Of a stretch of DNA of 64,000 bases, positions 2,472-63,131 are shown piece by piece. A program made the translations under genes and the position numbers. The first letter of the stretch is position 1. The number at the start of each line of letters is the position of its first letter. The notes beneath the pieces were generated by a model that worked only from the letters and a program-made list of their open reading frames with translations, did not search any database and was not told the origin of the DNA. Source of the stretch: a virus; the IMG/VR virus record IMGVR_UViG_3300044641_004856, positions 28,875 through 92,874 of that record; one strand, written 5' to 3'.

Positions 2472-2749
2472 ATTTAGCATTTGAATTAGACTTAGTTGTG
2501 AGGGGATTAATTGAATTCCCTGAAAATGAGCACAACGCTGCAGCATTAGCGGAGGTACGACCAATTGCTGCAAAACTAACTATTTTAAAAGACCAGGTAA
2601 CAGAAGACGTTCTTTCTAAAGAACAAGTTATTACTTCTTTAGAAAACGTAAAGGGAGAGTTAGATGTCCTTGATTCTATTTTGCCTTTTGTTAAAATTGC
2701 TGCTGCAGACCTACTGCGGTTTGTTAACCTACTAAAAGAAAGCGAGTAA
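2468..2749 (+). CDS. Helical acidic protein, 93 aa
   Basis: Starts at an ATGA overlap with the preceding tiny gene. In contrast to its neighbours it is acidic and entirely helical, with heptad-like leucines (residues ~35-75: AAKLTILKDQV, LENVKGELDVLDSIL), suggesting a short coiled-coil bundle. No family recognised. Its position inside the basic-peptide cluster of the structural operon suggests an assembly or virion accessory role. Confidence 0.6.
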   Translation: MNLAFELDLVVRGLIEFPENEHNAAALAEVRPIAAKLTILKDQVTEDVLSKEQVITSLENVKGELDVLDSILPFVKIAAADLLRFVNLLKESE

Positions 2750-2753
2750 GAGC

Positions 2754-2885
2754 ATGTGTGCTGTATGCGGATGCGGTAAGAAAAAGGGTCAGGCTGGATT
2801 TGGTAAAGGTAAAGGCTCTGCTATGGATGACAAAAAGAAAGCCTCTATGCTAAAGGGCAAAGACAAAGACAAGAAGAAGAAGTAA
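2754..2885 (+). CDS. Tiny Cys/Lys-rich peptide, 43 aa
   Basis: ATG at 2754, four bases after the upstream stop. The product begins MCAVCGCGKKK, with three cysteines in a CxxCxC arrangement within the first seven residues, and ends in a lysine run (KDKDKKKK). The knuckle could bind zinc or another metal, with the tail binding nucleic acid; both are inference. No strong ribosome site is seen, so coupling to the upstream gene is likely. Confidence 0.55.
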   Translation: MCAVCGCGKKKGQAGFGKGKGSAMDDKKKASMLKGKDKDKKKK

Positions 2886-2890
2886 CCCCT

Positions 2891-3052
2891 ATGGCTAAAG
2901 AACTCTCACCTAAACAAAAGCAAATTGCTAAAGTTGCTGGAAACCCTAAAAAAATTGAGGGTAAAGACTTCCAAGCGTTAAAGGCTATGAAAAAAGGCTC
3001 TGGCGTAAAAGGTAAGACTCAAAAGCAATTGCCTCGTAAAAAGGGTATGTAA
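2891..3052 (+). CDS. Tiny basic protein, 53 aa
   Basis: ATG at 2891 just after the previous stop; 53 residues, about a third Lys or Arg, no cysteine. The segment LSPKQKQIAKVAGNPKKI is a pattern shared by several small phage proteins, where it often carries the same NPKKI turn, but no function is known to me. It is the last gene before the hairpin terminator at 3074, so it closes this transcription unit. Confidence 0.6.
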   Translation: MAKELSPKQKQIAKVAGNPKKIEGKDFQALKAMKKGSGVKGKTQKQLPRKKGM

Positions 3053-3073
3053 TCCTTAAAAGAATTAAAGTTT

Positions 3074-3100
3074 AAGCCCCCGACTGGGGGCTTTTTCTTT
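3074..3100 (+). terminator. Rho-independent terminator
   Basis: Perfect 8-bp stem AAGCCCCC / GGGGGCTT with a GACT tetraloop (3074-3093), followed by TTTCTTT. A second, weaker inverted repeat (AGCAAGA / TCTTGCT, 3112-3135) followed by GTTTT lies just downstream. Together they separate the fibre/small-protein genes from the tail genes. Confidence 0.85.
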
Positions 3101-3170
3101 ATCCTTGTCTTAGCAAGAACCATGCGGGTCTTGCTGTTTTACTTGCTGATTTAACTGCTGCTTTAAGGGG

Positions 3171-3365
3171 ATGTCTATGTCTACTCCATGGTACGAACAG
3201 GTTGCTGAGATGCAGTCTGCCAGTGAGCGTGATGAGTTTGTAAAAGGTATGTACGGTTTTAAACCGCATAATCAGCATAATTTTGTAATTGGTCTTTTGG
3301 CTGGGTATGTCGGAACTAAACTACTTTTTAACTCAAAGAAGTCACGCCGTGAGACAAATAACTAA
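3171..3365 (+). CDS. Small membrane-anchored protein, 64 aa
   Basis: ATG at 3171 follows AAGGGG; a second in-frame ATG two codons later is possible. The N-terminal half is hydrophilic and helical; residues ~38-53 (FVIGLLAGYVGTKLLF) form one potential membrane helix followed by a basic tail. No family recognised. The end overlaps the following gene. A membrane peptide in a tail operon may act in lysis or entry, but nothing in the sequence proves it. Confidence 0.6.
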   Translation: MSMSTPWYEQVAEMQSASERDEFVKGMYGFKPHNQHNFVIGLLAGYVGTKLLFNSKKSRRETNN

Positions 3366-3669
3366 ACTCAAGCCAGCATTTATAAAAGCAGCCCGTCAAA
3401 CCGCTCAATTCATGACGCTTGAATTGCGTAATGAAACACGAGCCAGTGGTTGGAACCCTGATGTTGTTGACGCTATTAAAGTCTCCTATTCCAACAACCA
3501 CCTAAGTATTAACATCCCTGCAAAATATAAGCCGTTGGCAGATAACTGGGAGTTTGGTACTCCTAATCGCCAACCTACTGGGGCAATCCGACGTTTCTCA
3601 AATCGCCCAGAAGAGGCAGAGAAGTTTCTTTTAAAAAGCGTTAAGACTTCTTTAAGAGGTGTCCTATGA
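3349..3669 (+). CDS. Neck/tail-completion protein, HK97 gp10-like
   Basis: I prefer GTG at 3349, which overlaps the upstream stop by 17 bases; an ATG at 3289 would overlap it by 77. The 106-aa product has a helical N-terminus (TKLKPAFIKAARQTAQFM), then beta strands and a PxxxxWEFGTPNRQPTGAIRR segment. The 'W.fGt..r.ptp..R' type motif is characteristic of the HK97 gp10-like neck protein family. Placement just before the tail terminator-like and sheath genes agrees. Confidence 0.6.
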   Translation: MRQITKLKPAFIKAARQTAQFMTLELRNETRASGWNPDVVDAIKVSYSNNHLSINIPAKYKPLADNWEFGTPNRQPTGAIRRFSNRPEEAEKFLLKSVKTSLRGVL

Positions 3670-6525: not shown

Positions 6526-7332
6526 ATGACTACTCAAACCGTAAAAGCATCTGAAAATCCAGACCTTGTAAACCAAATGGTTGCCCAAGCACTGGCCGAA
6601 CCTGAAAAACAACAAGAATCAGTTGTAGTTACTCCTCCTTCTGATGTTCACGTTACTCTCCCTGGCGGATTTATAAATTCTGCTGGGGAGAGTGTGACAA
6701 CAGTTGAGGTTCGTGAATTAACTGGAAAAGACGAAGAAGCAATTGCAAGAGCACAGAATCTTGGCAAGGCTCTTCTACAAGTACTAAGCCGTGGAACTGT
6801 CAAAATTGGAAAAGAACCTGCTACTGAAGATGCACTAGATGCAATGTTGGCTGGCGACAGAGATGCTGTCATGCTAGGTATCTACAAAGCAACTTTTGGT
6901 AATACACCAGAACTACAAGGTTTTTGTGGCGGATGCAACGCATTTAAGCCAGTTACCATTAACCTAAATGAAGATATTAAAGTAAGAACTTTAGTAGATG
7001 AGCCTAGTTTTGTTGTAAACGCTAAATGTGGAGAAGTAGTGGTTACCCTACCAACAGGTTACTGTCAAAAAGAGTTAGTGAATAACTCAGATAAAACTAT
7101 GTCTGAGTTGACAACGATTCTTCTTGAGAACTGCATTCTTAAGATTAACGGTCGTCCCGTTATTAGTAAAGGACAGATTCAAAACTTAGGCATTAGTGAC
7201 AGACGCTTAATTGGCGAAGCAATTAATAAACACGCAATTGGCCCAGTTTTTGAAGATATTTCAGTTACTTGTCCTGACTGCGAAGGTGAGGTAAACACTC
7301 CTATTAACTTAGGAAGTTTGTTTCGCTTTTAA
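6526..7332 (+). CDS. Tail assembly chaperone (gp26/gpG-like), zinc-binding
   Basis: 268 aa between tube and tape measure, after AAAGGAAA. The LPGGFINSAGESVTTVEVRELTG segment (residues ~44-66, in part) is the beta-start of the T4-type baseplate/tail chaperone family. Two cysteine pairs, CGGC (~residue 138) and CPDC (~residue 253), could bind zinc. The gene ends TTT-TAA-A, and the +1 frame runs open for another 46 codons past the stop; a programmed shift would give a 314-aa product, as in many tail chaperones upstream of the tape measure. Confidence 0.7.
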   Translation: MTTQTVKASENPDLVNQMVAQALAEPEKQQESVVVTPPSDVHVTLPGGFINSAGESVTTVEVRELTGKDEEAIARAQNLGKALLQVLSRGTVKIGKEPATEDALDAMLAGDRDAVMLGIYKATFGNTPELQGFCGGCNAFKPVTINLNEDIKVRTLVDEPSFVVNAKCGEVVVTLPTGYCQKELVNNSDKTMSELTTILLENCILKINGRPVISKGQIQNLGISDRRLIGEAINKHAIGPVFEDISVTCPDCEGEVNTPINLGSLFRF

Positions 7333-16230: not shown

Positions 16231-17547
16231 ATGCCTATTCAGATTAAAGTCGCCAACAATTACGTTTCTTCAGGCTCTGCGTTTTTTAAAAGCGGTGGTG
16301 CTTGGATAAAGGCTAAAGAAGGTTACGTAAAAGTTGAAGGCACTTGGCGTAAGTTTTTTGTGTCGGAGTTTAAAGACTTCTTTGAAAGAGCAAACGCTTC
16401 AACATTAGGCACTTCTCCTACTGGACAAGCCTGGACAGTTGGTAGAGGCACTTGGAACATACTTGATGGTAAAGCACAAATTGCTACAGCAAAGTCAACA
16501 TACCCAATTGCTTTAGTTGATGTTGGACTAACAGATTTTGAACTACAGGCAAATGACATGGTTCCAGGAGTTGGCGTAATAATTAGGGCAGAGTCTTCTA
16601 CTACTTGGTGGGGCTTAGTTGGTTGGAATAACCAAGTTGCTTACACATATTCTTTTTGCCCACAAGCACTCGTTAATCAAGGCTACTGCATTGTAGATAA
16701 TATTTGCCAGCAAACAATTTGTCCTGGTGGGTATCAAACAGGGCAAAATTGTTCCCAAGGTCCTTGTTTAGTGCGTGAGCCAGACCAATTAGTTGGTATT
16801 GATTGTACGTATGCTTACTATCCAGGAACAACAACCTGTACTCCCGTCTCTACGCCACAAACAACTTGCCAAAACGTATGCATTAAAAACTGTACTAAAA
16901 CAACTTGTACACCAGGAAAAACAACCTGTACCAACTACCCTAAATGGGGAAGACAGTGTTACACCAGTGAACCAACCTGTACCTCTTCCTCTTTCTGTTG
17001 TGATAGAGATACGGTATGCAGTACAACAATTGTTATAACGCAATCTTGCACAACATCAGCAGGTAGTTATCGAGAAACGTGTGCTGGGTACTCTAGTCAG
17101 CAAGGAGCGTGTACCTCCTATGGTGCAGACGTTTGTACATCTTTTTCAACTTGTCCTGGTGGAACTACAACTCAAAACGTTGTCTGCGGTTACCCAGACT
17201 GTGCACAACTAGGTTCACGTCAAGTATGCCCAGTTGCAGAACAAACGGCGACTGGATACAATTACTTCTATAAACTTTACCTAATTAAGTCTGTAAATGG
17301 CGTTATAACCGTAGAACAACAATTTGATATTGGGGAAAACTTCAAGGCTCTTGGTGTGCTTGGAGTCGGTCCTAACTTAGCAGTAAACGTGTATAGAGAT
17401 AACGCCTATAACGACCAGATTAAGGTGTTGAGTTACTCGTCGTTTACCTCCCCAGCAGGAAGTAACTTCGGTATATTTGGCTATCCTTCAAATTACCAAG
17501 AAGGTAATACAATTGGTTCAATACAAGTAAAGCAACCAGGAGCATAA
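16231..17547 (+). CDS. Receptor-binding/fibre protein with lectin-like fold split by a 26-Cys insertion
   Basis: 438 aa. Residues ~1-45 repeat a strand pattern (SSGSAFFKSGGAWIKAKEGY) used by fibre proteins. Residues ~50-140 look like a concanavalin/LamG lectin half: DFFERANASTLGTSPTGQAW, GVIIRAES, WWGLVGW. Residues ~143-333 then hold 26 cysteines in a Thr/Ser/Pro/Gly-rich stretch, after which the lectin pattern resumes (YNYFYKLYLIKS, QFDIGENFKALGV) to the end. The Cys segment is likely an insertion that is disulphide- or metal-stabilised. It lies among fibre genes, so host recognition is the likely job. No signal peptide. Confidence 0.75.
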   Translation: MPIQIKVANNYVSSGSAFFKSGGAWIKAKEGYVKVEGTWRKFFVSEFKDFFERANASTLGTSPTGQAWTVGRGTWNILDGKAQIATAKSTYPIALVDVGLTDFELQANDMVPGVGVIIRAESSTTWWGLVGWNNQVAYTYSFCPQALVNQGYCIVDNICQQTICPGGYQTGQNCSQGPCLVREPDQLVGIDCTYAYYPGTTTCTPVSTPQTTCQNVCIKNCTKTTCTPGKTTCTNYPKWGRQCYTSEPTCTSSSFCCDRDTVCSTTIVITQSCTTSAGSYRETCAGYSSQQGACTSYGADVCTSFSTCPGGTTTQNVVCGYPDCAQLGSRQVCPVAEQTATGYNYFYKLYLIKSVNGVITVEQQFDIGENFKALGVLGVGPNLAVNVYRDNAYNDQIKVLSYSSFTSPAGSNFGIFGYPSNYQEGNTIGSIQVKQPGA

Positions 17548-17548
17548 T

Positions 17549-17830
17549 ATGAGTGAAAAAAGTCCGTGGCAGTTATGGAAAGAAAAAAACCCAGGTGATG
17601 CTGTTCGTCCATGGGATTTACTAAATCCTAATGTAAAGCGAGTCGACGATGAAACTCGGGATTACCGACTTAACCATTGTCTAGGATGCAAACATTTAAT
17701 TAAAGCCACTAAAACATGTACTAAATGTGGCTGTTTTATGACAGAAAAAACTAAATTAGCCCATGCTTCATGCCCCATTGGACTATGGGGTGCTGTTACT
17801 ATAGAACCTACAAACACAGAAGGAGAATAA
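17549..17830 (+). CDS. DUF6171-like zinc-ribbon protein
   Basis: 93 aa. The central NHCLGCKHLIKATKTCTKCG followed by CFMTEKTKLAHASCPIG has the cysteine spacing CxxC...CxxCxC...C of a small phage family I know as DUF6171. The function is unknown; the cysteines probably bind zinc. It begins one base after the cysteine-rich fibre stop and is followed by another fibre-associated small gene, so it may help fold or chaperone tail proteins. Confidence 0.7.
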   Translation: MSEKSPWQLWKEKNPGDAVRPWDLLNPNVKRVDDETRDYRLNHCLGCKHLIKATKTCTKCGCFMTEKTKLAHASCPIGLWGAVTIEPTNTEGE

Positions 17831-17831
17831 A

Positions 17832-18017
17832 ATGGCGGAGAACCAAAGATTTTTAGCGTTTGTCCTTGATGGAGAAGTAGCAGAAATACTTCAGACCGAT
17901 GACAAACTTGCTGCTATTTTTCTAAGTCAACCAAAAGTAGTTGAATTTGATAGAGAAAAAGACGGTGTTGTTGCTGGTATGAAGTACGACGGCACGAAGT
18001 TTAGTAACCCTGAGTAA
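17832..18017 (+). CDS. Small conserved phage protein, 61 aa
   Basis: Preceded by AAGGAGAA. The product has one short beta sheet: FLAFVLDGEVAEILQTDDKLAAIFLSQP, with a C-terminal VAGMKYDGTKF. Similar short proteins ('fa.vvdg.vv.......er..Ai..s.p..v') occur in fibre regions of myoviruses, including cyanophages, with no assigned role. No cysteines or membrane segments. Confidence 0.6.
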   Translation: MAENQRFLAFVLDGEVAEILQTDDKLAAIFLSQPKVVEFDREKDGVVAGMKYDGTKFSNPE

Positions 18018-34043: not shown

Positions 34044-34361
34044 ATGGATGAACCGTCTTACACATGGCGGTATAAAGCAAAGTGTCGCGGAGAAGATACT
34101 GACACCTTTTACCCACCTCGTGATAAAGAAAAGTACACAATCATTGCAGATAGAGCAAAGACGTTTTGTTTTGGAGCCACAGGGAACAAGCCCTGTCCAG
34201 TTCGTTTAAATTGTCTGTGGGATGCTGTAGAAAGGGATGAGCCACATGGAATTTGGGGAGGCCTGTCTCATCGAGAAAGAAATGCTCTAATTCGCAAATG
34301 GAAAAAGAAGTACAAAAAAACTATGTCGTTAGAACAATACATTAAAGAACTAGAGGATTAA
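34044..34361 (+). CDS. WhiB-family iron-sulphur regulator
   Basis: 105 aa, starting four bases after the previous stop. WhiB cysteines C14, C42, C51 and C57 with the WhiB turn GIWGGLSHRERN and a basic C-terminus. The usual CxxC is stretched to C-x8-C by a FGATGNKP segment, and C-x5-C is normal. WhiB proteins bind a 4Fe-4S cluster and the sigma factor, and are confined to actinobacteria and their phages, which identifies the host group. It probably redirects host transcription. Confidence 0.88.
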   Translation: MDEPSYTWRYKAKCRGEDTDTFYPPRDKEKYTIIADRAKTFCFGATGNKPCPVRLNCLWDAVERDEPHGIWGGLSHRERNALIRKWKKKYKKTMSLEQYIKELED

Positions 34362-45561: not shown

Positions 45562-47079
45562 ATGAACATTATCTACGGGGGCACCGAAGTTGGCAGCAAC
45601 CGAACGCTGCTCGAATCCATGGGTGTTACCCGCATGGCACTTTCTTTTTACGCTTTAAAGAAGCGTGGATTACCCCAAAAGAAGTTATGGCTAGTCTCTG
45701 AGCACTTCCTACCTACACTAGACATCTTGGTAGATTCTGGCATTGCCCAGGCTGAACGTGATGGGCTGTCTAAAGAGGAACTAACTTCTTTAGGGGCTGA
45801 ATACCAAGAGTTTGTCGCCAATAACCTGGATTCTATTCTGGGGTTTGTTGAAGCAGACTCTCAGACCCTAGGGTTAGATTGGATTCTCCAAGAGCGGGCT
45901 TCCTTTGAGCATGACCCTAAATTGTGGGTTGTATGGCATGACTCCTACGGGCTTCCAACCCTGCGAGAATGGGCTAGACGTTACTCAAATATCGCCATAC
46001 CCCACGCCACTATTGAAGCCTCTACGAGCCTTGCAGGGGTTACTAGAGGGCTGTCTAGCCAGTATGGGACGAAGTTCCACGCCCTAGGCTCAGCCAAGCC
46101 TGATAACCTTCGTCAGATACCGTTTACAACCGCTACGACCCTATCGTGGCTATCTCCCATGAGAAATGGGGAGACCATAATTTGGGACGGAACTAAAATA
46201 GTTCGGTATCCCAAGAAGATGATGGGGCAAGCGAGAAAACGCTACTCGTCAGTAATAGCCAAGGCTAATTTAGACTACGATGCGTTCTTAAAGAACAATG
46301 GGGTGGAATCCTCTAAGGTTGCAGTCTGGTCATACCAACAGTTGGAGAAATCAATGGACAAGAAACGCCCCGACCTTCACATAATTGAGGGGGGAAAAGA
46401 GCCTCTGTTATCTGATAACAGTGAGACACCCCTACTAAGCACTTTCGCGGAAACATGGGGTCACCCTTCTGATAACAGTGACCTAGAGATGCGGAAAGAT
46501 TCTGCGGTAGAAGAGCCTAAAAAGTTGATTGAAAGAGACCCTGAAGAGGTCACAAGCCTACCTGTCTTTGGCTACAAGATGAAGACGATTGTAGACACAG
46601 ATGACGAGGGAAATGACGTTCTAAAAGAAGTCCCTCTAGTCCAAACTACTGGCACTTCTTTACGCCAATGTGACACCTGTTTTGTTGCTTCGAACTGCCC
46701 AGCCTTCAAACCACAGAACTCCTGTGCCTTTAACCTACCTGTTGCTATTCAGACTAAAGAACAGTTAAAAGCCCTATTAAATGCCGTTATAGAGATGCAA
46801 GGAGCACGAGTTGCCTTCTCTCGGTTTGCAGAAGAGTTAAACGGAGGTTACCCTGACCCCAATACTTCGCAAGAGATTGACCGCCTTTTCAAGTTAGTAA
46901 AGGGTATGAAAGAGTTGGAAGAGAACCGCGAGTTCATTAGAATTACAGCAGAACGACAGTCTTCAGGAGGGGTGCTTTCAGCCATCTTTGGAGACCGAGC
47001 ACAGGCACTAAAAGACCTTCCAAATGGGGGTTTGAACGAAGCAGAAACTACGAAAATTATTCAACAAAGCCTAGAATAG
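45562..47079 (+). CDS. TGT/DpdA-like TIM-barrel protein (candidate)
   Basis: 505 aa. Residues ~1-60: IIYGGTEVGSNRTLLESMG, MALSFYALKKRGLP, then LDILVDSGIAQ with a DSG motif like the TGT active-site loop (DSGGFQ). Later EADSQTLGLDW, LWVVWHDSYGLPTLREWA, and KFHALGSAKPDNLRQIPFTT then LSWLSPMRNG are in the order expected of a tRNA-guanine transglycosylase/DpdA barrel. C-terminal ~370-390 has CDTC, NC and SC, a possible zinc site. It may exchange a base in DNA or RNA. No queC/D/E or folE genes are in the window. The family call is inference. Confidence 0.5.
   Translation: MNIIYGGTEVGSNRTLLESMGVTRMALSFYALKKRGLPQKKLWLVSEHFLPTLDILVDSGIAQAERDGLSKEELTSLGAEYQEFVANNLDSILGFVEADSQTLGLDWILQERASFEHDPKLWVVWHDSYGLPTLREWARRYSNIAIPHATIEASTSLAGVTRGLSSQYGTKFHALGSAKPDNLRQIPFTTATTLSWLSPMRNGETIIWDGTKIVRYPKKMMGQARKRYSSVIAKANLDYDAFLKNNGVESSKVAVWSYQQLEKSMDKKRPDLHIIEGGKEPLLSDNSETPLLSTFAETWGHPSDNSDLEMRKDSAVEEPKKLIERDPEEVTSLPVFGYKMKTIVDTDDEGNDVLKEVPLVQTTGTSLRQCDTCFVASNCPAFKPQNSCAFNLPVAIQTKEQLKALLNAVIEMQGARVAFSRFAEELNGGYPDPNTSQEIDRLFKLVKGMKELEENREFIRITAERQSSGGVLSAIFGDRAQALKDLPNGGLNEAETTKIIQQSLE
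46407..46419 (+). promoter_or_regulatory. Palindrome GTTATCTGATAAC, copy 1
   Basis: Perfect 13-bp palindrome, extended to CTGTTATC/GATAACAG (46405-46421). It lies inside the TGT-like gene. A half site TCTGATAACAGTGA recurs near 46469, and an exact 13-mer recurs at 47079. Operator-like, function unproven. Confidence 0.4.
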
Positions 47080-47091
47080 TTATCTGATAAC
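47079..47091 (+). promoter_or_regulatory. Palindrome GTTATCTGATAAC, copy 2
   Basis: The same 13-bp palindrome as at 46407, here starting on the last base of the TGT-like gene's stop codon and running into the gap before the reductase gene. A possible binding site upstream of the ribonucleotide reductase; the gap (47080-47218) holds no other gene. Confidence 0.4.
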
Positions 47092-47218
47092 AGCAGGTGG
47101 AGAGACGTGGAACAAGGTGGGGGAAAATGGAGGCTTATTGTCAGGTGCATTAACATGATTTACCCAGCAAACTTCTACCTCTAATCTTCCTAAATCTTCC
47201 CTCCCGAAAGGTCTTTCA

Positions 47219-49264
47219 ATGTCATTTTTGTCTTTTAATCTTAACGAGGATTTTGTCTCAGGCTTCCGCTCAAAGAAGCCTCCTTTTGGCTACACCGATG
47301 CTGCTGGTAATTCTGTCGGGGAGATAACCTTCTTAAGAACCTATAGCCGTCTCAAAGAGGACGGAACTAAGGAGACTTGGGTTGACGTTTGTGAGCGTGT
47401 AATCAATGGAATGTATTCCCTACAGAAAGACCACGCTAAATCCCAGCGTCTACCTTGGAATGACTCCAAGGCTCAGTCTTCGGCAAAAGAAGCCTTCGAA
47501 CGTCTTTTTGAATTAAAGTGGACTCCACCTGGTCGAGGACTTTGGGTAATGGGAACTTCTTTAGTAAACAAGCACCGCAACTCAGCAGCACTACAAAACT
47601 GTGCTTTTGTCTCTACCGTCGAAATGACCAAAAACAACCCCGCCAAACCTTTTGCTTTCCTCATGGAGGCTTCAATGCTAGGCGTGGGTGTGGGCTTTGA
47701 CGATAAGGGAGCGGATAAAGACTTTACTATCTATGAGCCTTCTAAAGCAGAGGCTAACTTTCAAACCTACGTAATCCCTGATACTCGTGAAGGCTGGGTC
47801 GAGTCTGTAACTCTTCTTTTGAACTCTTACTTAAAGGCTGACCAACCACGTTGGATTTTTGACTACTCTCTGATTCGCCCTGCAGGTGCACCTATCAAAA
47901 TCTTTGGTGGCACTGCTGCTGGACATGAACCTCTTTTGAGACTGCACGATTACCTTTATAAGATGTTTGAAAATCGGGCTGGTGAAAAGGTCACTCGTAA
48001 GGACATAGCAGACATTGGAAACCTTATTGGAGTCTGTGTTGTTTCAGGCAACGTCCGTCGTTCCGCAGAACTTCTTATTGGACGTATTGATGATGAAGAT
48101 TTCCTAAACCTAAAGAACGCAGATGTCTACCCTGAGCGTAACTCCTATGACCCTAAAAATCCTGGTTGGGCTTGGATGTCGAACAACTCTGTAGAAGCAA
48201 CTGTTGGCTCTGATTACTCTAAAATTGTTGACGGCATTATTCTTAATGGAGAACCAGGAATTGTTTGGCTAGATGTTTCAAGAAAATACGGAAGACTTGC
48301 TGACCCTATCAATAACAAAGACCACCGTATCGCTGGCTACAACCCTTGTGCAGAGCAAAGCCTAGAGTCTTTTGAATGTTGCACCTTGGTGGAGACGTAT
48401 CTCAACCGCCACAAAAATAAAGAAGACTTCTTAAGAACTCTAAAGTTTGCTTACCTATACGCAAAGACCGTAACTCTTCTTCCTACACACTGGGAAGAGA
48501 CCAACGCAATCATGCAACGCAATCGTCGCATTGGAACTTCAGTTTCAGGCATGGCTAACTTTGCTGACAATAAAGGCTTACCTGTTTTGCGTGATTGGCT
48601 TAACGAAGGCTACAAACTTGTGAAGAGTTACGACAGCACTTACTCAGAATGGCTTGGTGTTCGTGAGTCAATCAAGATGACAACGGTAAAGCCTTCAGGA
48701 ACAGTTTCAATCCTTGCTGGAGAATCTCCAGGAGTTCACTGGGCTTCAGGTGGTAAGTTCTTTAACAGAGCAATTCGCTTTGCTAACTCTGACCCAATGC
48801 TTCCTCTTTTCAAAATGGCTCAGTATCGAGTTGAGCCTGCTTCTGAATCTCCTGAAACAACTTCTGTTGTCTTCTTCCCGATTAAGACAGAGGCTAAGCG
48901 TGCTGAAAAAGAAGTTTCAATCTACGAAAAAATGGACTTAGCAGCAACTGCTCAGTTCTACTGGAGCGATAACTCTGTATCAGTTACAGTAACTTTCGAC
49001 CCTGAAAAAGAAAGTAAAGAGATTGGAACGGCTTTAAGAATGTTTGAGGGAAGAATGAAAACTGTTTCGTTCTTGCCGATGGGTAACGCTGTGTATCCAC
49101 AAATGCCTTACACGCAGATTACTGAACAAGAATACGAAGATGCAACTATGAAGTTGTTCCCTATTGACCTTGAAGGTGTTTATGCAGGTATGGCTTCAGA
49201 CGCTATCGGTGAGGCTTACTGCACTACAGATGCTTGTGAAGTTAAACTTATAAAAGAAGGTTAA
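47219..49264 (+). CDS. nrdJ: Adenosylcobalamin-dependent (class II) ribonucleotide reductase
   Basis: 681 aa with AAAGG before ATG. NPCAEQSLESFECC (active-site Cys), the preceding NCAFVSTVEM with the N-terminal redox Cys, VCVVSGNVRRSAE, TVKPSGTVSILAG and a C-terminal redox pair CTTDAC. The single-chain layout is that of monomeric B12-dependent triphosphate reductases. It makes deoxynucleotides for phage DNA. The need for cobalamin links it to the CobS/CobT-like genes at the right end. It converges with leftward genes at its stop. Confidence 0.9.
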   Translation: MSFLSFNLNEDFVSGFRSKKPPFGYTDAAGNSVGEITFLRTYSRLKEDGTKETWVDVCERVINGMYSLQKDHAKSQRLPWNDSKAQSSAKEAFERLFELKWTPPGRGLWVMGTSLVNKHRNSAALQNCAFVSTVEMTKNNPAKPFAFLMEASMLGVGVGFDDKGADKDFTIYEPSKAEANFQTYVIPDTREGWVESVTLLLNSYLKADQPRWIFDYSLIRPAGAPIKIFGGTAAGHEPLLRLHDYLYKMFENRAGEKVTRKDIADIGNLIGVCVVSGNVRRSAELLIGRIDDEDFLNLKNADVYPERNSYDPKNPGWAWMSNNSVEATVGSDYSKIVDGIILNGEPGIVWLDVSRKYGRLADPINNKDHRIAGYNPCAEQSLESFECCTLVETYLNRHKNKEDFLRTLKFAYLYAKTVTLLPTHWEETNAIMQRNRRIGTSVSGMANFADNKGLPVLRDWLNEGYKLVKSYDSTYSEWLGVRESIKMTTVKPSGTVSILAGESPGVHWASGGKFFNRAIRFANSDPMLPLFKMAQYRVEPASESPETTSVVFFPIKTEAKRAEKEVSIYEKMDLAATAQFYWSDNSVSVTVTFDPEKESKEIGTALRMFEGRMKTVSFLPMGNAVYPQMPYTQITEQEYEDATMKLFPIDLEGVYAGMASDAIGEAYCTTDACEVKLIKEG

Positions 49265-53302: not shown

Positions 53303-53629
53303 CTATGCTTTCTTGTAGGTATAACTTACGGTATAGGTTTGAGTGTCTCTGTCATAGACACGAATTGAAGGGCACTTCTTGCCCCTAACTTTGTTAATGC
53401 ACTTGAATACTGCAGGAGTATCTGTGCATTCCCAATGGTGTTCGTGACACTTCTTGCAATTATTTTCATCGCAGTCACGATAGGTAATTTCAAGGCAGGC
53501 TTCACAATAGGTTGCAAAGCATTCTCCACCCTTATGAAAGTTCCAGTAAGAACAATCTCTCCATGACTCTTCAGCGTTACAACACTTACTAAGCGTTGGC
53601 ACTCCTGTGCTTAACTCTCCTGTTTTCAT
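53303..53629 (-). CDS. Cysteine-rich (12 Cys) protein, 108 aa
   Basis: ATG overlaps the upstream stop. Twelve cysteines occur between residues ~16 and ~90: SKCCNAEES, YCEACLEITYRDC, NCKKCHEHHWEC and FKCINKVRGKKCP. With interspersed His this looks like a small multi-zinc protein. No known family; nucleic-acid or protein binding is possible. No signal peptide. Confidence 0.6.
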   Translation of the reverse strand: MKTGELSTGVPTLSKCCNAEESWRDCSYWNFHKGGECFATYCEACLEITYRDCDENNCKKCHEHHWECTDTPAVFKCINKVRGKKCPSIRVYDRDTQTYTVSYTYKKA

Positions 53630-59690: not shown

Positions 59691-61667
59691 TCATTGAGAT
59701 ACCAAACGACGTGCGATTGCAGTTCGCACTAGTGATTGACCAAGAGACAAGATGTCTTTGGCTTCACCAATTCGTTTGATTATCTCAAAGTTATGTCTGC
59801 ACCTTTCTAATCCTTCATTCGAAACTTCATTAGGATAGAGAAGTGCTTGGCAAGTGAGAACACCTGCTTCTTTCATTCTTCTTACAGACTCTTCCGCTTT
59901 ATCTCCGCCCCATGCACCGTCAGTAATCATGAAGAGAATGCGGATTGGCTTGTCTGTAGTAGCAAGAATGTTTTGTGCATTTAAGATTGCAACTTCAGGT
60001 TGTGTTGTTCCACTTGCACCTGAATCTCTTACTGTTGTATCTGCTTTTTCATCTGCAGAATAAAGTAAGTGAGTATGTGAATCAAACGTGTAAACAGTTG
60101 TGCGTGCCTGCACTTTGTCTAAAGAACGTTTGATAGCCCACAAACTTTTGTATGCTTCTTTTGCATTGTGACCTTGCATTGAAGAAGAACGGTCAAGAAG
60201 AATAACTGCTTCGATTGCAGTTACGTCATCGCGACCGCTTTGCCACTTGTTAAACAAAGTGCGAACACTTGCACCTTGCATGTAACGATTGGCATTTAAC
60301 TTTCCACTTCGTTGCTCAGTTAACCATGAAGGGTCGTAGTTTGCTTTGAGTCTTTCTAACTCACGAGCAAACGAACGTTGCACCATTACTAAGTCTGCAG
60401 TTGCAGATACAGAACGGTAATCAGCACGTGATACCGACTCTGCATTAACAGTTCCCATAAGAGGTTTACCAACAACCTGCATTGATAACTTATTTAGATT
60501 ATCCATAAGTTCTTCAGTAACTGATTGGATAATCTCTTCCATGGTGTCTGTAACTTCTTGAGAGTTTGCAGTTTTACTTTTACCACCAGCACCAGCATGA
60601 CGGCTTAAGTTATCTGCTTCATAAGAATCATCAGACTCTGAATCATCATCAGAATCTTCAGCAACAGTTACGTCACCAAAGTCAGAAGAAGAATCGGAAT
60701 CTTCTTTTGAATCTGAATCATCATCTGAATCTAATTCATCATCAGAATCATTACCACCATTACCACCTTTATCGTTTGGGTCTGCAAAGTTATCTGAAGA
60801 AGAGTTAGATTGTGAATCTGAATCTGAATCTGAATCATCATCAGAATCTGAATCATCATCAGAATCAGCAGAAGAAGATTGTGTATCTTCTTTATCTAAT
60901 TCTTTTTCTTGCTTCTCTGCATTCTTACGGTCACGCTCTTGTTCACGCTTTGGTGCAGGACGTGAATCAGAAGACTCATGACCTTGGAATGGTCTCGCTT
61001 CATGACCGTTTGGGTCTGCAAGATTATCGCCCTGAATTAATTCTGCGAATCGTGCAATTAATTCTTTTGCACGTTCTGTATCGTCAGGGAATAACAGCAA
61101 ACGGTATTCATCAATTACTTCACCAAGTGCAACTATGTTTTCTTGTTTTGCATAGTGCTTGCGTGCAAGTTGACGAATCTCAAGAGGCAAGTATCTGCGA
61201 CCGCGTAATAACGGATACGCATTCTCGATTGCTTCAGGAGTATTAAGAATGAATTGTGCAACAGTTGCAGTCAACCAATTAACAGTTGAAGGGAATCTGC
61301 CAACCATAAGTGTTTCGATACGTTGGTCTTCTAACGCATTGAATGCTTTCCAGTAATTGTTTTCAATTACCCATAAGCAGATGTCAGAACCGTTACGTGG
61401 TGTGTAACGAACGTGTGCTAACTCGTGAAAGTCCAAGCCTTGGATTGATAACAAAGTCTCTGTATCAAACTTGTCATTAATCTTTGCTTCGTTGAACCAT
61501 ACGTCGTTAGCACCCGACCAAGCAGGAGCACCGTCAGGTTGATTGACGATGTGCACTTTAATTGGACGAAGTGCAATAACAGAATTAGCACGTTGAAACA
61601 CTTGTGCTAATCGAAGTAATCTATCGCGCTTTTCGTTCTGTTGTTCTTGTGTTGTTAGTTGTTGCAT
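59691..61667 (-). CDS. CobT-like metallopeptidase-VWA protein
   Basis: 658 aa. HELAH (residues 81-85) is an HExxH zinc motif and ALEDQRIE (111-118) supplies the usual third Glu. Residues ~265-355 are an Asp/Ser-rich acidic linker. The C-terminal VWA domain has LDRSSSMQG (DxSxS MIDAS, 491-499). CobT-type cobalt-chelatase subunits and HExxH-VWA proteins share this plan and pair with a MoxR/CobS AAA+ ATPase, which is encoded next door. A chelatase-like or chaperone role is inferred. Leader has a CCGCAACAAAAAA copy. Confidence 0.75.
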   Translation of the reverse strand: MQQLTTQEQQNEKRDRLLRLAQVFQRANSVIALRPIKVHIVNQPDGAPAWSGANDVWFNEAKINDKFDTETLLSIQGLDFHELAHVRYTPRNGSDICLWVIENNYWKAFNALEDQRIETLMVGRFPSTVNWLTATVAQFILNTPEAIENAYPLLRGRRYLPLEIRQLARKHYAKQENIVALGEVIDEYRLLLFPDDTERAKELIARFAELIQGDNLADPNGHEARPFQGHESSDSRPAPKREQERDRKNAEKQEKELDKEDTQSSSADSDDDSDSDDDSDSDSDSQSNSSSDNFADPNDKGGNGGNDSDDELDSDDDSDSKEDSDSSSDFGDVTVAEDSDDDSESDDSYEADNLSRHAGAGGKSKTANSQEVTDTMEEIIQSVTEELMDNLNKLSMQVVGKPLMGTVNAESVSRADYRSVSATADLVMVQRSFARELERLKANYDPSWLTEQRSGKLNANRYMQGASVRTLFNKWQSGRDDVTAIEAVILLDRSSSMQGHNAKEAYKSLWAIKRSLDKVQARTTVYTFDSHTHLLYSADEKADTTVRDSGASGTTQPEVAILNAQNILATTDKPIRILFMITDGAWGGDKAEESVRRMKEAGVLTCQALLYPNEVSNEGLERCRHNFEIIKRIGEAKDILSLGQSLVRTAIARRLVSQ

Positions 61668-61682
61668 GACTGCCTCTCTGTA

Positions 61683-61700
61683 GATTTTTTGTTGCGGATT
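61683..61700 (-). repeat. CCGCAACAAAAAA leader repeat, copy C
   Basis: Plus-strand GATTTTTTGTTGCGGATT; on the minus strand this lies ~16 bases before the VWA gene ATG. It shares its first 15 bases with copy B and the CCGCAACAAAAAA core with copy A. Confidence 0.5.
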
Positions 61701-61730
61701 TTTTTATAAAGAATGTTGCAAGAGTGCAGA

Positions 61731-63131
61731 TTAATTATCTGCACCCTTGTCAACGTTAGGAGTATTGATTGCAACTTCATACTCTTCTGCGATGTTGGTG
61801 CTGTAAGCCTCCAACAACAACTTAACGCTTGAACGCTCTTCTTCGTTGAAGTGATTAACAAAGCAACGAACAGCGAAGTCGAAGTTGTAATTGATTACGT
61901 GATACTGAAAGCCCTTAAGAAGTCTGAGACTGATTGGTGTCTCATACTCTCCACGAACAGACTCTGCACGCATTTGCGTTGCAAGTTCCAGTAACGACTT
62001 TGACTTAATGATTTTCTTTTCAATAGTCGAGTCGTATTCGTAAACTAATTGAGTTGTGAATCTATCTGCAAACGCCTCATTTAATTTACGAGTTCCGCGA
62101 TAACCTGCGTTGTATGCACCGATGATAAGAAGTTCATCATGACCTTGAATAACTTCATTGTCGTTGCCACGCAAAGTAATCTGTCGCAGATTATCAAGTG
62201 CATTGTGCATGTCAGCAGAGCAACCTTCTTTAATGAATGAAAGTTCATCAAGAAGAACAACACCACCGTATTTAAACGCGAGTGCTAACTCACCGTAAAC
62301 AAACTTAAGTGTGCCGTCTGCTTGCGGTTCAAGTTGTCCTTTGTAATCAGAAGGTTCACTTGCAAGGTTCATGCCGATTGCATAGAACGGTAAACCTTTT
62401 GAAGAAGCGAATGCTTTTGCGGAAGTTGTTTTACCAGTTCCAGCATGACCTTCTAACAATACGTTTTGTTTATTAATCAAAGCACGTTCGAAGATGTCAA
62501 ACTCTTTTATACCGTCGAATGTGCGTTGAATGTAGTTCGCAACTTCAGGGTCAGTTGGTGAAGGCACATACTTGTTTTTAATTTCAAGTGGAATGTCATC
62601 ACGAACAGCAACAGTTGCAACAGGAGCAACAGGAGCAGTTTTAATTGGTGCAGAAGCGATGTTGATTTGCTTGTAGTTTGTAGTTGCAGTTTTATCTGCA
62701 CGACCGTCACTACGAAACTTCACAAGCGAATTGATGTCAGTTGCTAAGCAAGTATCAACGTCTGCAACAACGTCACTTAGTAATTGACCAGTAAGTGTTT
62801 TATCGCGTAGTGCGAATTGTTTTGTTAACTTCTGAATCATGTTGAATGCAGAGTTATCAGTAAACACGTCCTTGATGTCAGTTGGTGTAAGTGGTGAAGA
62901 TAGAACAGAACCAACAACTAATTCATTACCAAACTTATTAGTAGTGAATGAATCGTAAGTTGAATCAGTCCATGCGTTTGATACACCACGACCGCCGTTA
63001 GTAACACGTGTCCAAACTTTTACACCGCGTTCGATGTCAGCAACAACTAGTTGTTGTCGAAGATAACCGAGTTCAGTTGTTTGCGATGTAACTAATACTG
63101 CATAACCAGTTGTGATTGTTGTTGTAGTCAT
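61731..63131 (-). CDS. CobS/MoxR-like AAA+ ATPase
   Basis: 466 aa, GAGAGGC before ATG. The N-terminal ~190 residues are not recognised. The AAA+ core: LLEGHAGTGKTTSAKAF (Walker A, ~230-246), GVVLLDELSFI (Walker B), IGAYNAGYRGTRKLNEAFADRF (sensor/Arg region, split here as IGAYNAGYRG and LNEAFADRF). It is the CobS/MoxR family that partners VWA proteins such as the next gene. Phage cobS is known from cyanophages; whether this one serves cobalamin is unproven. Confidence 0.8.
   Translation of the reverse strand: MTTTTITTGYAVLVTSQTTELGYLRQQLVVADIERGVKVWTRVTNGGRGVSNAWTDSTYDSFTTNKFGNELVVGSVLSSPLTPTDIKDVFTDNSAFNMIQKLTKQFALRDKTLTGQLLSDVVADVDTCLATDINSLVKFRSDGRADKTATTNYKQINIASAPIKTAPVAPVATVAVRDDIPLEIKNKYVPSPTDPEVANYIQRTFDGIKEFDIFERALINKQNVLLEGHAGTGKTTSAKAFASSKGLPFYAIGMNLASEPSDYKGQLEPQADGTLKFVYGELALAFKYGGVVLLDELSFIKEGCSADMHNALDNLRQITLRGNDNEVIQGHDELLIIGAYNAGYRGTRKLNEAFADRFTTQLVYEYDSTIEKKIIKSKSLLELATQMRAESVRGEYETPISLRLLKGFQYHVINYNFDFAVRCFVNHFNEEERSSVKLLLEAYSTNIAEEYEVAINTPNVDKGADN

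Follow-up and report, generated by a model that had tools for sequence, protein, structure and literature searches.

The 438-residue protein encoded at positions 16231–17547 of the window (the whole 64,000-nucleotide stretch analysed, which forms the final 64 kb of the 92,874-base virus contig G000) is likely a tail adhesin bearing a disulfide-laddered, two-stranded β-needle of about 25–33 nm that grows from a CBM66/ConA-type sandwich. All 26 of its Cys residues lie at residues 143–333 (nt 16657–17229) and none elsewhere in the open reading frame, in agreement with the first-pass annotation, which had also correctly described this stretch as rich in Thr, Ser, Pro and Gly. The parts of the protein are as follows.

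16231–17547, + strand: lectin-type tail-module protein with hairpin, 438 aa (open reading frame call, family alignments, structure model)
16231–16365, + strand: residues 1–45, small N-terminal module, presumed attachment part (PHROG 25859 matches)
16366–16656, + strand: residues 46–142, CBM66/ConA-like β-sandwich, half 1 (pLDDT 70–91 per block; VIA-align Z 17.6 to Douge gp20)
16657–17229, + strand: residues 143–333, putative disulfide-ladder hairpin, 26 Cys in 13 nested pairs (Cys symmetry, relatives, AF2)
16879–16893, + strand: residues 217–221, CIKNC, N-arm half of the ladder's four-Cys cluster (family alignment)
16927–16959, + strand: residues 233–243, tip loop with closing rung C233–C243 (nested-pair analysis)
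16996–17019, + strand: residues 256–263, CCDRDTVC, C-arm motif retained by many, but not all, members (alignments)
17230–17544, + strand: residues 334–438, lectin-like β-sandwich, half 2 (pLDDT 76–93 per block; alignment A4)

Genomic setting and composition

The hairpin gene sits in a baseplate/fibre module, flanked on one side by baseplate J, base V and a fibre-like gene, and on the other by the gene for a CBM_4_9 protein of 730 aa. The window also encodes a tail sheath, a tail tube and a large tail-type protein containing a peptidase-like domain, together with a DnaB-type helicase, a DNA polymerase, an integrase, ribonucleotide-reductase domains and WhiB. The WhiB-family gene (34044–34361, + strand) hints at an actinobacterial host, and the best baseplate-J matches among named phages are Streptomyces phages (about 28% identity); from general knowledge, these two features together suggest that the phage probably infects actinobacteria. 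The neighbouring late genes mostly encode proteins with 0–0.6% Cys (0.6% in the sheath), and the exceptions nearby are the tail tube (1.0%), the genes at 134–760 (1.4%) and 6526–7332 (2.6%) and the DUF6171-like gene that follows the hairpin gene (6.5%).

The N-terminal module is common to other phage proteins, and PHROG 25859 matches it at E 0.01 or better in 20 of the 22 rows of the A2 alignment. Pfam found no domain in the 438-aa protein, and across 22 family members it gave a single, chance-like match in one of them.

Mirror symmetry of the cysteines

When the Cys residues are paired from the outside inwards, the position sums of the 13 nested pairs are 476, 477, 478, 472, 476, 473, 476, 476, 476, 474, 477, 476 and 476, spanning 472–478 with a standard deviation of 1.6 and equalling 476 exactly in seven pairs. 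None of 200,000 uniform placements of the Cys residues is as tight, and about 25 of 200,000 shuffles of their spacings match it (P = 1.25e-4). Because residues directly opposite each other give a constant sum, the near-constant sums point to one long antiparallel β-hairpin. The first-pass annotation had missed this mirror symmetry of the pairs, in view of which a disulfide ladder is likelier than a metal cluster. A random cluster of Cys residues is ruled out by the symmetry and by the even Cys counts described below, and separate globular Cys-rich domains by the order of the pairs and the strands of the AF2 models. As the pairing is read from sequence alone, the same symmetry test might reveal ladders in other unannotated proteins.

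Family relatives and paired gain and loss

Relatives were gathered by scans of viral contigs, yielding a distinct set of 26 complete members (window protein included) and two fragments, and the most distant members in the A2 alignment are 33% identical to the window protein. The Cys count is even in all 26 complete members of this set (range 16–32), as it is in two further relatives, L164 (26 Cys) and L178 (6 Cys), and hence in 28 of 28 complete members (range 6–32). All 28 carry the Cys-bearing insertion at the same place. The first-pass annotation had taken the Cys block for an oddity of one phage; that view is not supported, since the block is a normal feature of the family, the outcome that the annotation itself had set against its reading, and the architecture is still odder than it had guessed. 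Of the 28 rows of the distinct set, 27 have a spacing-shuffle P value no higher than 0.05, the exception being L079 (P = 0.0625). The family pattern is an even number of Cys residues nested in register on one hairpin, as in a cystine ladder; the exceptions are one four-Cys cluster of ambiguous pairing and L178, whose register is loose.

The L178 relative (2503–3549 of its contig) is a 266-aa protein with a short insertion, encoded by an otherwise unlike phage with a DUF6171-like gene next to it. It is 34% identical to the window protein over its residues 16–170, and its nested sums of 265, 269 and 279 indicate a register that is not constant. This short form is possibly an early or a reduced form of the hairpin protein.

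Consistent with pairing across the hairpin, Cys residues are gained and lost in twos. Among the 12 rows of the close subfamily, all five variable C-arm Cys columns (window numbering) show a presence pattern identical to that of their nested N-arm partners, the pairs being 159–319, 174–302, 224–252, 226–250 and 229–248. The chance of five such matches under row shuffling, with phylogeny ignored, is 8e-11, and the five pairs changed 1, 2, 3, 3 and 1 times when mapped on a FastTree phylogeny of the flanks. In L016 and L017, Cys 192 is replaced by Cys residues at 189 and 194, accompanied by one extra C-arm Cys.

The four-Cys cluster (217/221/256/257; nt 16879–16893 and 16996–17001) departs from this regularity. 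Its CIKNC motif is retained by many, but not all, family members, and the Cys pairing there is ambiguous in the alignment. Cys 221 and Cys 257 are both missing from L070 and L083, and this joint loss suits bonds 217–256 and 221–257, which would cross locally instead of nesting strictly; judged from sequence, the cluster may form crossing bonds or possibly a metal site. The CIK.C and CCDRD motifs recur in many divergent members and are missing in the 16-Cys members L074, L086, L088 and L090. By comparison, the sequence of the tip loop (residues 233–243) varies from lineage to lineage.

No relative turned up in the annotated phage collection when tblastn was run with the full-length protein, the N-terminal part alone, the L016 Cys block, L076, L079 and L178, which gave only a few weak matches, confined to N-terminal residues (E 0.2–5). 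Two scans of genome contigs likewise returned no relative and so no prophage or host, and a PDB profile search gave no match at E up to 10. Two pattern matches, L037 and L042, do not belong to the family, having no open frame with CCDRDTVC, and a third, L038, has a 158-residue open frame that is unlike the family by eye. Fragments (L005, L017, L018, L029, L077, L082, L085, L129 and L130) were not counted as complete members, L017 and L029 being kept as fragment rows in the alignment, the shuffle test and the column comparison. Exact duplicates (L071, L080, L087 and L140) and re-fetched contig copies were counted once; L001 and L032 correspond to the window protein itself. Five proteins that were aligned early (L008, L010, L012, L013 and L015; 20 or 22 Cys) are nearly identical to L007, L009 and L014 and were kept out of the distinct set for that reason.

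Predicted structure

Two AF2 models were obtained. In model 1 (17 rows; mean pLDDT 57), the longest confident stretch lies in the hairpin, with block means of 69–83 over residues 161–310. In model 2 (22 rows; mean pLDDT 76), the lectin part is mostly at 80–93 and the hairpin at 50–84 per ten-residue block, with the lowest confidence at residues 181–200 and 271–290; pLDDT is low over most of residues 1–26. Outside the hairpin and residues 1–40, where blocks reach 70–93, the model is a ConA/CBM66-type β-sandwich. Both models place mirror-image strands about residue 238 (201–227 with 249–275, and 231–236 with 240–245), as read from DSSP output that lists strands without pairings. The structure prediction that the first-pass annotation had called for thus bears out a lectin fold split by an insertion, and turns the Cys-rich arms into the mirror-image strands of a predicted hairpin. 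The insertion falls between sandwich strands 126–142 and 338–355, which suggests that the needle is an overgrown β-hairpin of the sandwich. For the complete long members, arms of 24.9–33.3 nm are estimated at 0.33 nm per residue on the assumption of straight strands, with 8–16 predicted rungs over 151–202 residues.

In VIA-align, the AF2 model ranks first with residues 688–878 of the central fibre protein gp20 of mycobacteriophage Douge (8zdq/8zdp; Z 17.6, rmsd 2.7 over 169 residues), followed by CBM66 (Z 17.5, 148–154 residues). The Douge alignment takes the model range 41–437 as one β-sandwich with only 168–169 residues aligned; the two halves thus align as a single lectin-like domain interrupted by the Cys-rich insertion, as had been proposed from the sequence. 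The Douge protein is likewise a fibre of an actinobacterial phage, but that phage is a siphophage, the identity is 12%, and an insertion of the hairpin's size cannot fit within the 191 residues of its aligned range. The Douge fibre domains, the tip C-terminal domain included, are reported to bind the mycobacterial surface (PMC13033339), and residues 688–878 of gp20 appear to be that surface-binding tip domain. CBM66 of Bacillus subtilis (4azz, 4b1l and 4b1m; Z 17.3–17.5) has the same lectin fold, but with 161–165 residues it is without such a hairpin. Foldseek gave no match in the PDB at E 0.001 or under; in BFVD it matched six proteins of uncultured Caudovirales (E 1.2e-18 to 6.7e-11, probability 1.00) and, more weakly, actinophage minor tail proteins.

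Proposed model and alternative explanations

In the model that we favour, the small N-terminal module presumably fixes the adhesin to the baseplate and is followed by the CBM66/ConA-type β-sandwich. The chain would leave the sandwich for about 95 residues, turn near residues 234–242 and return straight as a two-stranded antiparallel β-ribbon, in which opposite Cys residues (143–333, 153–324, ... 233–243) may make up to 13 disulfide rungs. Such rungs would turn an otherwise unstable ribbon of ~30 nm into a stiff, protease-resistant needle, which could cross the host surface layer and present its variable tip and flanks to the receptor, in a manner comparable to the T4 gp37 needle with other chemistry. 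In the virion the Cys residues would be in the oxidised state, which they would probably reach in an oxic environment once the cell has lysed. Searches of the G000 record for thioredoxin, glutaredoxin and Erv-type oxidases were negative, the last with little weight because the Erv model detected just one of 14 control genomes, and eight related records gave no thioredoxin; post-lysis oxidation is our guess from the lack of an oxidising helper in G000. We infer the strand pairing in one hairpin, the oxidation of the Cys residues, the stiffness and length of the needle, its contact with a receptor and the N-terminal attachment.

With moderate confidence, we regard host contact by the needle as its most likely function, given the adhesin-type fold and locus, the fast divergence of the hairpin and the recurring motifs. 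Between the window protein and its nine nearest relatives the lectin part is 86–91% identical and the Cys block 46–66%, and among such near relatives a hairpin that diverges much faster than the lectin is expected of a host-contacting part; in distant members the gap is small (33–40% versus 26–33%). The fast divergence could instead reflect relaxed constraint. On this account the ladder would be a mere rigid spacer or stabiliser, with the lectin making the host contact and the hairpin drifting as little beyond the rungs matters. The Cys columns are indeed retained while the other residues of the block are 41–61% identical to the window protein in the nine nearest relatives, and the four 16-Cys members dispense with both motifs and L178 with all but six Cys. 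However, survival of motifs like CIK.C and CCDRD in many other divergent members goes beyond the needs of a bare spacer, and no complete member has lost the insertion; we therefore consider a spacer unlikely.

The nature of the rungs is a separate issue. The Cys pairs could be metal ligands, three chains forming a six-stranded needle with a metal ion at each Cys layer. T4 gp37 provides a precedent, as its needle is described as leaving and re-entering the D10 collar domain and holding seven irons on histidines (PMC6957217); such layers would also explain the paired gain and loss of Cys residues, and the 217/221/256/257 cluster could form a single metal site. Nevertheless, successive N-arm rungs of the window protein are 4–13 residues apart, too far for intrachain four-Cys sites except at that cluster, and they occupy a mixture of odd and even positions, so that the Cys residues could not all face one core. 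Nor is there a supply of metal-binding His residues of the gp37 type, with none in the window protein's block and 0–2 in any of the 28 rows. Even counts, gain and loss in twos, rung spacing and few or no His residues together favour disulfides, and a metal needle appears improbable.

Alternatively, disulfide rungs might act as a redox-sensitive trigger, such that the hairpin is released or unzipped when it is reduced at the host surface, as has been speculated for the tail of Agrobacterium phage Milano. That tail is reported to have contracted in vitro with guanidine plus a reducing agent and not with chaotropes alone (PMC10811340). Its key bonds, however, are described as intersubunit and spread across sheath and baseplate, whereas the sheath, the tube and most tail proteins here are Cys-poor, and 8–16 rungs would seem to exceed the needs of a switch; we give such a trigger little credence. 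A membrane-inserting stem like that of β-pore-forming proteins is very improbable, as the weak Foldseek matches to aerolysin-type pores (best E 2.6e-3, probability 0.23) reflect long-hairpin resemblance only, the composition is polar, and the two central arms tested are without hydrophobic alternation (shuffle P 0.54 and 0.69).

The DUF6171-like gene and evolution of the locus

Two small genes follow the hairpin gene directly.

17549–17830, + strand: DUF6171-like gene with a zinc-ribbon-like Cys pattern, directly after the hairpin gene (Pfam, PHROG and pattern matches)
17832–18017, + strand: 61-aa small gene (open reading frame; a similar gene comes after the DUF6171-like gene of L178 too)

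The first of these had been recognised in the first-pass annotation as a DUF6171-type Cys protein, an assignment that our searches support at 23.1 bits in Pfam (below the 27-bit cut-off) and E 3e-15 in PHROG 13558; the DUF6171-like genes of G003 and G009 score above the Pfam cut-off. The gene also fits a C..C / C..CGC / C zinc-ribbon-like pattern, which is our own and not Pfam's definition. For the 61-aa gene, an overly narrow pattern matched 5 of 18 loci.

Of 80 baseplate-J loci fetched, 71 entered a survey of the slot, and in 51 the downstream sequence extended for 1.5 kb or more. Among these 51 loci, 22 have the hairpin gene, or the beginning of it, in the slot (18 complete), and in the other 29, with a downstream reach of 1.5 to 7 kb, no Cys-rich gene was found in it. 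All 18 complete hairpin loci, at least three of them exact duplicates, contain the DUF6171 motif, versus 0 of 29 loci without the hairpin gene. Likewise, a DUF6171 profile search of 14 whole records, which may be fragments, detected the gene in all eight with the hairpin protein and in none of the six without it in the slot. Genomic linkage between the two genes thus stands, whereas the functional assistance that had been suggested for the DUF6171-like protein is not supported. The hairpin-bearing group is also nearer by baseplate-J identity, and the linkage could therefore stem from one event. The contig of L178, which pairs the 6-Cys short form with a DUF6171-like gene and carries major head, portal, terminase and primase-like genes, is unlike the others, and so provides a second genome context for the pair; 6.3 kb of it had no match in the phage collection.

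DUF6171 is not specific to the ladder in general, look-alikes being present in 50 records of other phages, among them IME-SM1, in which it lies among genes not annotated as tail genes. Nor does it always lie beside a thioredoxin-like gene: among four records examined, such a neighbour occurs only in Synechococcus phage S-IOM18, where the DUF6171-like gene (L148, 4640–5294) overlaps a small CPQC-motif gene that is thioredoxin-like by eye. In Synechococcus phage S-SRM01 (L150, 3883–5336), an annotated adhesin tip complex with 11 Cys lies directly 5' of the DUF6171-like gene, and this 11-Cys gene is without ladder-type symmetry by eye.

A tentative and rather doubtful reading of the locus is that the adhesin and the DUF6171-like gene form a mobile cassette, in which the lectin loop gained its rungs one at a time, to give ladders of 3 to 16, and the product of the DUF6171-like gene holds the Cys residues separate or loaded with metal until the ladder closes upon lysis or later. 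If true, phages would have in it a general means of building receptor-binding needles that are very long and covalently stiffened, present both in a contractile-tailed lineage and in the otherwise unlike phage L178.

Comparison with known systems

A lectin-type phage adhesin is a known entity; the structural element that it carries here is one for which we could not find a description. No disulfide-laddered needle of this kind was found described for a virus in the open-licence literature, as judged from titles and the openings of abstracts. In T4 gp37 (D10/D11), the chain is described as exiting the head domain, reaching a receptor-binding tip and returning (PMC6957217), as is proposed for the needle, but gp37 is described as trimeric and built on His–iron sites, whereas the protein here has Cys pairs and no His in its block, and we claim no kinship. 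Cystine ladders, as in θ-defensins and the CLL motif of HAP2, are likewise described as stacked parallel disulfides (PMC6327110), though on a smaller scale, with 18 residues in θ-defensins and three bonds in a 37-residue loop in HAP2. In bovine antibodies with ultralong CDR-H3, a β-ribbon stalk from a loop of a β-sandwich is reported to present a binding tip, which resembles our model, but it comprises 50–70 residues with disulfides in the knob and not in the stalk (PMC8602281). The Milano virion is described as contractile-tailed and extensively cross-linked by disulfides, with receptor-binding proteins included, although its network is largely intersubunit across sheath, tube and baseplate (PMC10811340). 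The premise that phage fibres rarely use disulfides is accordingly only partly true.

If our model is right, the adhesin would represent a new structural principle in phage host recognition, a ~30-nm two-stranded ribbon held by a dozen disulfides in a protein presumably made in the reducing cytoplasm. It raises the questions of how a virus without a detectable oxidase of its own oxidises 13 in-register disulfides and which surface such a needle has to reach. The rung-by-rung variation among relatives offers a natural series for the lengthening of a β-hairpin needle.

Three other regions of the window are worth recording. An open reading frame of 108 aa at 53303–53629 (− strand) contains 12 Cys and several CxxC motifs and has no Pfam match at E 0.001. 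At 45562–49264 (+ strand), a ribonucleotide reductase gene that includes a B12-type insertion domain comes after a Queuine tRNA-ribosyltransferase-like gene, and a VWA-domain protein adjoins an AAA_5 ATPase at 59691–63131 (− strand).
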